Assembly: GCF_008831545.1 (NCBI RefSeq)
Contig: NZ_CP044523.1
Coordinates: 2,852,001-2,916,000, forward strand
Length of the DNA: 64,000 nt
From: Halorussus halophilus
GTDB lineage: Archaea > Halobacteriota > Halobacteria > Halobacteriales > Haladaptataceae
Direction: 5' to 3'
Shown: in pieces, positions 53,876 to 56,875 of the stretch
Numbering within the stretch: the stretch's first letter is position 1
Layout: every line of letters starts with the position of its first letter
Program-made: the position numbers and the translations under genes
Notes under the pieces: model-generated
The model's input: the letters and a program-made list of their open reading frames with translations, nothing else
Told to the model about the DNA's origin: nothing
The model's database searches: none

Positions 53876-54009
53876 CGTTACCCACGTTTAGACTGGTTCC
53901 TGTTGAAAAGAATTCCGGCCAAAGTGTTAATGGCATATTATCACCACTAAGGTGTACTAGGCGCACTCGGGGACCAGATAGTTAGTAGTGGCCTGCATAG
54001 CCTTTGGCG

Positions 54010-55065
54010 ATGGAACCGCAACGGGACCCCGTCGAAGAGGGTGCGACCGACTCCGCCGACCTCTACGACGTCGCGACGTGGGAAGAGCGGAGTTGGTTGG
54101 ACCGGTTGTCGAGCGTCGTCTATCGAGTTCTGAGATTCTCGGCGCGAGCGGTCGTCGTCTTACTGGCGTTGCTCATTCTGGTCGCGCAGTTCCTGCTCTC
54201 GGGGCTGGCCGCCATCAGCGAACCGTACATCGGCGCGTTCGTCCTGCTGTCGGTCGTCCCGGCCTTCGCGCTGGCGGCATACATCTGGTACGCCGACGTG
54301 ACGACTTCCGAGCCGCTCACACTACTGGTCGGTACCTTCCTGCTCGGAGTGCTGTTCGCCGGGTTCGCTGCTATCGTCAACACCATCGCACAGCCGATTT
54401 TCGTCAACTTCGTCCCGGCAATCGGCCTCGTGTTGTTCTTCTATCTCATCGTCGCGCCGGTCGAAGAGACGGTGAAGTGGCTGGCGATTCGGCTGTACGC
54501 GTTCCGCAGTAGCCGCTTCGACGCGGTCATCGACGGCGCGGTGTACGGCGCGATGGCAGGGCTCGGCTTCGCCACCATCGAGAACGCCATCTACATCACG
54601 CAAGGACTGAGCGGAGCCAGTGGACTCGGTTCCGAAGCTATCGCCGACGCGGGCCAGACGGCGGCAGTTCGACTCCTCGCCGGGCCGGGCCACGTCATCT
54701 ACTCGGCGTTCGCTGGCTACTACCTCGGACTAGCGAAGTTCAACCGGGAGAACGCGGGCCCCATCGCGGTCAAGGGCCTGCTCATCGCGGGGTTCATCCA
54801 CGCGACGTACAACACGTCGGTCACGTACCTGACGCCGCTCCTCGAACTGAGCGGGGCAAGCATCAATCCGGGCGTCGCGTTCATCGCGTTCGTCGTCGTC
54901 TACGACGGTGTCTTCGGCTACCTGCTCTACCGGAAGATTTCCCGGTACCGGCAGGCGTACCAGCAGACCAACATGGGTCAGAGCGTCACCTTCGAAGATT
55001 CGGAGGCACAGGCGCAAGCACAACCAGAACAAGAAGGGGACTCCTTCGAGACGGAGTCGAAGTGA
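54010..55065 (+). CDS. PrsW family intramembrane metalloprotease
   Basis: A 351-aa membrane protein with about nine helices. The active-site blocks are LIVAPVEETVKWLAIRLYAF (E-E-x-x-K-W), GLGFATIENAIYITQGLSG (E-N) and AGFIHATYNTSVTYLTPLLE (H-A-x-Y-N), which match PrsW/CAAX-type proteases that cut membrane proteins. The N-terminal 60 residues are soluble and acidic. Bacterial PrsW cleaves anti-sigma factors; in archaea the target is unknown. Start ATG 54010; the TTG at 54004 is less likely. The C-terminus is Gln/Glu-rich (EDSEAQAQAQPEQEGDSFET). Confidence 0.9.
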   Translation: MEPQRDPVEEGATDSADLYDVATWEERSWLDRLSSVVYRVLRFSARAVVVLLALLILVAQFLLSGLAAISEPYIGAFVLLSVVPAFALAAYIWYADVTTSEPLTLLVGTFLLGVLFAGFAAIVNTIAQPIFVNFVPAIGLVLFFYLIVAPVEETVKWLAIRLYAFRSSRFDAVIDGAVYGAMAGLGFATIENAIYITQGLSGASGLGSEAIADAGQTAAVRLLAGPGHVIYSAFAGYYLGLAKFNRENAGPIAVKGLLIAGFIHATYNTSVTYLTPLLELSGASINPGVAFIAFVVVYDGVFGYLLYRKISRYRQAYQQTNMGQSVTFEDSEAQAQAQPEQEGDSFETESK

Positions 55066-55087: not shown

Positions 55088-55768
55088 TCAAGCGAGCGCG
55101 TCCGGGGCCGAAAGATAGTCAGCGAGCCACCAACCAGCGACGCCCGAGACGGCACCGAACAACCCGAAGACGACCGGCAGGACGACGCCGCTTCCGGCGA
55201 CGAGGGCGTCGAAGGCAGTCAGCGCGTCGAGTCGGACCACGTTGTACGCGACGAACAACACACAGAGAACACCGCCGAGTCCGCAGGCCAACAGTCCCTG
55301 TCTGAGTCCGTCAAGTGCGTCGTCCGCGGCGCGATAGCCGACGACGACGCCGACAGTCAACACGCCGAGAGCCGTGAGTGCCGCGGCGCGATAGCCGACG
55401 ACGACGCCGACAGTCAACACGCCGAGAGCCGTGAGTGCCGCGGCGCGATAGCCGACGACGACGCCGACAGTCAACACGCCGAGAGCCGTGAGTGCCACGC
55501 CGTCGTAGCGGAGCGGCCTCGCGACTACGTGGACCGCCGCGACTCGAACGAACAGTGCGCCGGAACCGAGCGCGACGACGAAGCGGTCGATTTCGGAACT
55601 GGAACCGAACGTACCGACGCCTTCGACGGCGACACCGACGACGCCAGCACCCAGCACGCCAGCGCCAGCAGTGACGAGTGCCGGTTCGGGACCCGGACTG
55701 GCGGTGGATGTGGCCACCGCCGTCGCTCCGACGACGAGTAACCCTGCCAACAGCGCGAAACGTCGCAT
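55088..55768 (-). CDS. Hypothetical membrane protein with triplicated helix unit
   Basis: A 226-aa protein with an N-terminal hydrophobic segment (LLAGLLVVGATAVATS), further Gly/Val-rich helices, and three exact copies of a 19-residue unit, ALTALGVLTVGVVVGYRAA, at about residues 92-148. The C-terminal part (LRQGLLACGLGGVLCVLFVA, then GVVLPVVFGLFGAVSGVAGW) resembles the same region of the next gene upstream (55814-56191), so these two are paralogues in tandem. The triplication is perfect at DNA level (55325-55495). No known family; membrane topology depends on the copy number. Confidence 0.78.
   Translation of the reverse strand: MRRFALLAGLLVVGATAVATSTASPGPEPALVTAGAGVLGAGVVGVAVEGVGTFGSSSEIDRFVVALGSGALFVRVAAVHVVARPLRYDGVALTALGVLTVGVVVGYRAAALTALGVLTVGVVVGYRAAALTALGVLTVGVVVGYRAADDALDGLRQGLLACGLGGVLCVLFVAYNVVRLDALTAFDALVAGSGVVLPVVFGLFGAVSGVAGWWLADYLSAPDALA
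55325..55495. repeat. Perfect 57-bp tandem repeat, three copies
   Basis: Units at 55325-55381, 55382-55438 and 55439-55495 are identical over all 57 positions as read. The unit length is 19 codons, so the frame is kept. Identical copies mean recent expansion or ongoing copy-number change. Confidence 0.93.
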
Positions 55769-55813: not shown

Positions 55814-56191
55814 TCAGTACTCCGAGGCGTGGTTGCCGATAGTTCCAGAGACGTGGCCGACCACGCCGAACGTGACCGGGAGGACGACTGCGCTGGCCGC
55901 GATTATCGGGAGATAGTCGAGTTGTTTCGTCGCCGCCTGTGCCGCGACGAGGAAGACGCAGAGACCGCCACCGATTGCCCCGGCGCGGAGGCCCTTTCGG
56001 CGAGTTGGGTCAGCGCTACCGCGATACTCGACGCCGAACCCGACCAGCGAGACGGCGACGGCGACCAGCGACACCTGCGAGAGGTCGGAGCGATACGCCA
56101 CGGGGAGTGCGAACGCGACGAGGGCGACGGCGGCGAACAGAATCGCCGCACCGACGAGGGTCGTCCGGTCGAAGGCGTCTCGGGGGAGCAT
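55814..56191 (-). CDS. Hypothetical membrane protein, paralogue of the next gene
   Basis: A 125-aa protein with four hydrophobic segments (TTLVGAAILFAAVALVAFAL, QVSLVAVAVSLVGFGVEY, AGAIGGGLCVFLVAAQAA, IAASAVVLPVTFGVVGHVSG). The last two align with the C-terminus of the 55088-55768 protein (V-V-L-P-V-x-F-G near the end in both). The N-terminal repeat region of the paralogue is absent here. 45 bases separate the two genes on the same strand. Function unknown. Confidence 0.75.
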   Translation of the reverse strand: MLPRDAFDRTTLVGAAILFAAVALVAFALPVAYRSDLSQVSLVAVAVSLVGFGVEYRGSADPTRRKGLRAGAIGGGLCVFLVAAQAATKQLDYLPIIAASAVVLPVTFGVVGHVSGTIGNHASEY

Positions 56192-56215: not shown

Positions 56216-56875
56216 CTATAAGTCGATTCGTTCCGTCCCGGCCTCCGAGAGCATCCGCTCGGTGTACTTCGCGATTACGTCCACTTCGAGGTGGACGGGG
56301 TCGCCTGCGCCCTTTTCGGAGAGGTTCGTCACGGCGCGCGTCTCGGGGATGATTGCGACCGTGAAGGTGTCTTCACGGAGGTCCGCGACGGTGAGGCTGA
56401 TGCCGTCGAGCGTGACCGAACCCTTGTCCACGACGTACTTCGCGTAGTCGTCCGGCACAGCGAACTCGTACTGCCAGTCCTCTCCCACCTGTTCCACACC
56501 GACGACTTCCGTCGTCGTATCGACGTGGCCCTGCACGACGTGTCCGTCGAAGCGGCCGTCGGCGGGCATCGCGCGTTCGAGGTTCACGGGGTCGCCGACT
56601 TCGACTGCTCCCAGATACGTCTTGGCGACCGTCTCGGCCGCGAGAAACACTTCGAACCAGTCACCGTCGGACTCCGTCCGACGAGCAGACGCGTCTGCCG
56701 ACGCGTCAACGCCCCCGAACTCCTCGACGGTCAGGCAGACGCCGCTGACACTGATGCTCTGGCCGCGTTCGAGGTCCTCGGTGACGACTTCGCCGCCGAT
56801 GGTAAGTCGTCGTCCATCCTCGGTCACGGTCACGTCGCGTACCTCGCCCGACTCCTCAACGATTCCGGTAAACAT
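56216..56875 (-). CDS. ribE: Riboflavin synthase
   Basis: A 219-aa two-domain lumazine-binding enzyme that dismutates two 6,7-dimethyl-8-ribityllumazine molecules to riboflavin. Domain 1 starts with MFTGIVEESGEVRDVTVTED and has SISVSGVCLTVEEFG; domain 2 has GRFDGHVVQGHVDTTTEVVG and GSVTLDGISLTVADLREDT. The usual length is 190-215 aa; here an insert rich in Asp/Ser/Arg (VDASADASARRTESDGDWFE) lies in domain 1. Archaea of other groups use an unrelated RibC type; haloarchaea have this bacterial type. Start ATG 56875; diverges from the 57007 gene. Confidence 0.95.
   Translation of the reverse strand: MFTGIVEESGEVRDVTVTEDGRRLTIGGEVVTEDLERGQSISVSGVCLTVEEFGGVDASADASARRTESDGDWFEVFLAAETVAKTYLGAVEVGDPVNLERAMPADGRFDGHVVQGHVDTTTEVVGVEQVGEDWQYEFAVPDDYAKYVVDKGSVTLDGISLTVADLREDTFTVAIIPETRAVTNLSEKGAGDPVHLEVDVIAKYTERMLSEAGTERIDL

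Follow-up and report, generated by a model that had tools for sequence, protein, structure and literature searches.

An in-frame 57-bp triplication in a Halorussus membrane protein gene, probably a recent and tolerated slippage accident

Introduction

Does a perfect triplication inside a membrane protein gene mark a site at which copy number is tuned, or is it a fresh accident that the cell has tolerated? This question is raised by a 64,000-nucleotide stretch of a Halorussus genome (the window), in which a 57-bp unit occurs three times in direct succession within a gene on the minus strand. The initial annotation of this stretch offered both readings, the former as phase-variation-like tuning. 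Here, we assess them on the basis of the statistics of the array, its consequences for the encoded protein, the state of the locus in related genomes and the divergence of the copies at synonymous sites.

Results

The array is exact, in frame and far beyond chance

Three exact copies of the 57-bp unit occupy positions 55325-55495 on the minus strand and keep the codon register, each being translated to the same 19-aa sequence, ALTALGVLTVGVVVGYRAA (Table 1). The array thus corresponds to an in-frame coding tandem repeat, that is a head-to-tail repeat of a 10-100 bp unit whose length is a multiple of three and which lies inside an ORF. Its TRF score of 346 for 3 x 57 bp is the highest in the window, the runner-up reaching 76. 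The longest exact self-match at lags of 20-300 comprises 116 bases as compared to 12-14 bases in 20 simulated windows, which were generated by a first-order Markov model with the same dinucleotide make-up. The triplication is therefore not a product of chance but lies far beyond it. The initial annotation had described three identical, frame-keeping copies of a hydrophobic unit, and the 100% self-match, the intact 226-aa ORF and a single hydropathy peak per unit agree with this description on each count.

Table 1. Positions of the array, its host gene, neighbouring genes and other tandem arrays of the same genome
Feature	Location	Strand	Remarks
Window	G000:C1:2852001-2916000		part of the 3.64-Mb main contig, Halorussus genome
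Whole exact self-match	55324-55496	-	173 bp = 3 x 57 + 2 bp, 100% identity
Unit copy 1 (first in sense order)	55439..55495	-	codons 92-110
Unit copy 2	55382..55438	-	identical to copies 1 and 3
Unit copy 3	55325..55381	-	identical to copies 1 and 2
Gene with the triplication	55088..55768	-	226-aa polytopic membrane protein, ORF intact; weak DUF5518 resemblance below the Pfam cut-off
PrsW-family intramembrane metalloprotease	54004..55065	+	convergent neighbour, syntenic
Riboflavin synthase (ribE; lumazine-binding domains)	56216..56875	-	upstream neighbour, syntenic
Paralogue (125 aa) of the C-terminal part of the triplicated protein	55814..56191	-	41% identity to the single-copy query; not expanded
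37 bp x 2.57 array	L073		exact; same genome; apparently outside evident genes
42 bp x 2.2 array	L067		98% identity; same genome; apparently outside evident genes
22 bp x 2 array	L092		exact; same genome
CRISPR-like array, repeat GTCGCAGAAGCCAGAAAAGCCGAGAAGGCATTGAAAC	L071:3481-6968 (G000:C1:3233481-3236968)

The unit coincides with one hydrophobic segment of the protein

Hydropathy analysis reveals eight hydrophobic segments in the present protein, hence six in its single-copy form, in which the unit is the fourth. The peak of each unit amounts to about 2.2 (Kyte-Doolittle, 17-mer). The unit is also helix four of six (residues 104-124) in the AlphaFold model of an orthologue, but with a pLDDT of about 40, and the mean pLDDT is very low both for the window protein modelled with its orthologues (44) and for the orthologues alone (39). 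Provided that every unit crosses the membrane once, the gain of two segments, being even, should leave both ends of the protein on their original sides. As the linkers between the units consist of a few residues only, the units might alternatively form a tight hairpin, or some of them might not span the membrane. The earlier proposal that a change in copy number flips the topology of the remaining protein would accordingly hold for an allele with two or four copies, whereas the present three copies add two segments and would leave the flanks unflipped.

Most of the DUF5518 profile (PF17647) can be aligned to the C-terminal region of the protein, the score being 21.6 bits for the protein as found and 24.7 bits (E 2.7e-5) in single-copy form. 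However, this is below the curated Pfam gathering cut-off of 27 bits, which leaves the protein outside the family as defined by Pfam, and the five orthologues have no match at E 0.1. In the alignment, all five orthologues have a loop rich in arginine that connects segments 2 and 3, of which the window protein lacks some 15-20 residues near residue 54.

Related genomes carry a single unit at the syntenic site

The single-copy form of the protein was used as the query for the orthologue search in a set of 18 Halorussus genomes, comprising the window genome, five with an orthologue and 12 others. The five orthologues share about 57-65% identity with the query and are all located as in the window, between the convergent gene for the PrsW-family protease and the riboflavin synthase gene. 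Each of them contains exactly one 19-aa unit with the same conserved flanking residues. These five syntenic one-unit orthologues indicate that the triplication is derived within the lineage of the window, by expansion from a one-copy ancestor. A uniform three-copy state with divergent codons, named in the initial annotation as an outcome that would refute its reading, is thus not what the orthologues display.

In the other 12 of the 18 genomes a convincing orthologue was not found, a single weak match being located elsewhere in one of them (G008). The PrsW and ribE matches lie just 17-512 bp apart in 11 of these 12 genomes; in the twelfth (G007), the interval could not be resolved. The negative search together with the short gaps argues that the gene is not universal in Halorussus. 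No match was obtained in ten searched genomes from other genera of the family, nor with the single protein as query against named genomes; an alignment query against the latter recovered two genomes that the genus set had included from the start, H. ruber YC25 and a Halobacteriales MAG. Outside the orthologues, a search for further copies of the unit in the genome and the genus yielded just short, weak matches.

The paralogue in the window adjoins the triplicated gene on its upstream side, between this gene and ribE. Since the PrsW-ribE interval of the orthologue-bearing congeners holds only one such gene, this site seems to have undergone another duplication, older than the triplication, from which the paralogue arose.

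Synonymous sites point to a recent origin in a gene under selection

Synonymous differences are absent among the three copies (18 synonymous sites each; ~54 in total), whereas codon comparison of the unit with its orthologues yields 0.52-0.66 synonymous differences per site. This supports a recent origin of the array, as already claimed in the initial annotation. Zero changes in ~54 synonymous sites correspond to an approximate 95% upper bound of 0.056 changes per site per copy. As the branches to the nearest orthologue amount to about 0.5 each, this bound suggests that the age of the array may not exceed about a tenth of that of the split from this orthologue, gene conversion being ignored. 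Gene conversion is known in polyploid haloarchaea and could also keep the copies identical, so that identity alone does not fix the age of the array. For the whole gene, dS relative to the orthologues is 1.0-1.35 and dN/dS is about 0.3, the latter indicating a genuine protein product on which purifying selection acts.

Discussion

Proposed origin of the array

Homology between the two ends of the duplicated stretch is limited to 2 bp, GG (GTGGCA / GCGGAC), as would be expected for an illegitimate slippage duplication. We propose that replication slippage, or another illegitimate event, at these ends duplicated the 57-bp stretch covering one hydrophobic segment, and that the two copies may subsequently have misaligned or recombined unequally to generate the third. 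Models of this kind for the gain of tandem repeats have been reviewed (PMC3899988). The reading frame would have survived because the unit length of 57 bp is divisible by three and no stop codon lies within it. The protein would thereby have gained two hydrophobic segments, now having eight instead of six, and the triplication would persist because it is tolerated, probably as a neutral change, and not as a switch. A special DNA structure as the driver of slippage was considered and rejected, as there is no unusual hairpin and the fold z is -0.71.

Tolerated accident, contingency locus, selected gain or artefact

Taken together, the array is probably a recent, lineage-specific in-frame coding minisatellite in a non-universal membrane protein, reflecting a slippage accident that has been tolerated. 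The single copy in all orthologues and the fact that the gene was not found in most congeners make this the likeliest reading and, with one allele in view, a fresh accident is to be preferred among the two options offered initially. The same three observations leave phase-variation-like tuning unsupported. If the locus were a contingency locus, frequent slippage or RadA-dependent recombination would change the copy number, and the topology of the C-terminal part would flip and be restored, odd and even numbers acting as on and off states. Perfect in-frame 57-bp repeats are unstable in principle, each copy contributes one hydrophobic peak, and a 57-bp tandem repeat at dop of M. tuberculosis varies between as well as within strains (PMC12817950). 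However, across species only the copy in the window is expanded, the locus has no regulatory or surface-variation context, and the low-confidence models lend no structural support, which renders a contingency locus improbable. Still harder to credit is the strong form of this idea, an archaeal repeat-driven topology switch in which living cells often change their copy number and the C-terminal half is oriented according to whether this number is odd or even.

Some points do sit uneasily with the accident. In an 800-kb sample of the genome, the array is the only exact one with three full copies. Moreover, the repeat comprises one whole hydrophobic segment and the gain is even, which could hint at selection. 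An extra hairpin of two helices might alter the function of the protein and be kept for this reason, and the intact frame and conserved flanks as well as the topology-preserving increase would fit such a gain. On the other hand, the identical copies reveal no divergence or refinement, and the linkers comprise just a few residues each, so that we regard a selected gain as unlikely, too. As to an assembly artefact, in which the true locus would have one or two copies, errors at short arrays more commonly collapse copies than add them, which counts against it. Moreover, the 173-bp array is small in relation to long reads and exceeds the usual length of short reads only slightly, and the genome is assembled in 4 contigs. 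Thus, although repeats are well known to cause assembly errors (PMC6868369), an artefact seems very unlikely.

Relation to known repeats and significance

The tolerated-accident reading involves a known kind of mutation, an ordinary tandem duplication, in a new instance. The array resembles coding minisatellites in that identical tandem units lie within coding sequence and slippage or unequal recombination would account for them, but examples given in the review include surface-protein repeats and low-complexity repeats (PMC3899988), whereas here the unit is one hydrophobic segment and a single allele is known. With the dop repeat of M. tuberculosis Erdman (PMC12817950) it shares three copies, a recent gain and, by coincidence, the 57-bp unit length. 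The dop repeat, however, has been interpreted by its authors as lying in the promoter, and its copy number differs among strains as well as within a population, while the Halorussus array lies mid-gene and is represented by one allele. A duplicated promoter element is unlikely here, given that the array is located mid-gene, that the unit has no A+T-rich box and that no same-strand gene lies between the host gene of the array and the convergent PrsW gene. Literature searches on transmembrane tandem repeats with slippage found no papers. The locus offers a clean snapshot of how one or two mutations can add segments to a polytopic membrane protein, the ancestral form with a single copy still being visible in relatives. 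If its copy number were unstable, it would provide a natural test of how helix-number parity affects topology.

Tandem repeats elsewhere in the genome and genus

The frequency of repeats in the genome was estimated from an 800-kb sample of stretches, which yielded the further arrays listed in Table 1 and no other exact array with three full copies, placing the 57-bp array at the extreme of the local range. In congeners, the homologous PrsW-ribE region contains unrelated arrays of 105 bp x 2 (96%), 24 bp x 3.6, 18 bp x 3.9 and, upstream of ribE, 42 bp x 2.2. Judging from these arrays in the genome and its congeners, short tandem duplications form a persistent background in Halorussus, from which the 57-bp array stands out by its three full, exact copies in frame.

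Some of these repeats have features of their own. In a genome without the gene (G012), the PrsW-ribE gap is filled by the 105-bp x 2 array, which is composed of 15-bp units in about 14 copies (L033:2157-2370). The CRISPR-like array contains an exact 72-bp repeat-spacer duplication in 2.5 copies (positions 5467-5647 of L071), and a degenerate 18/54-bp repeat in which GCCGTAATCGGGGC is abundant, and which may represent a peptide repeat of short period, is located at L081:5863-6114 (G000:C1).
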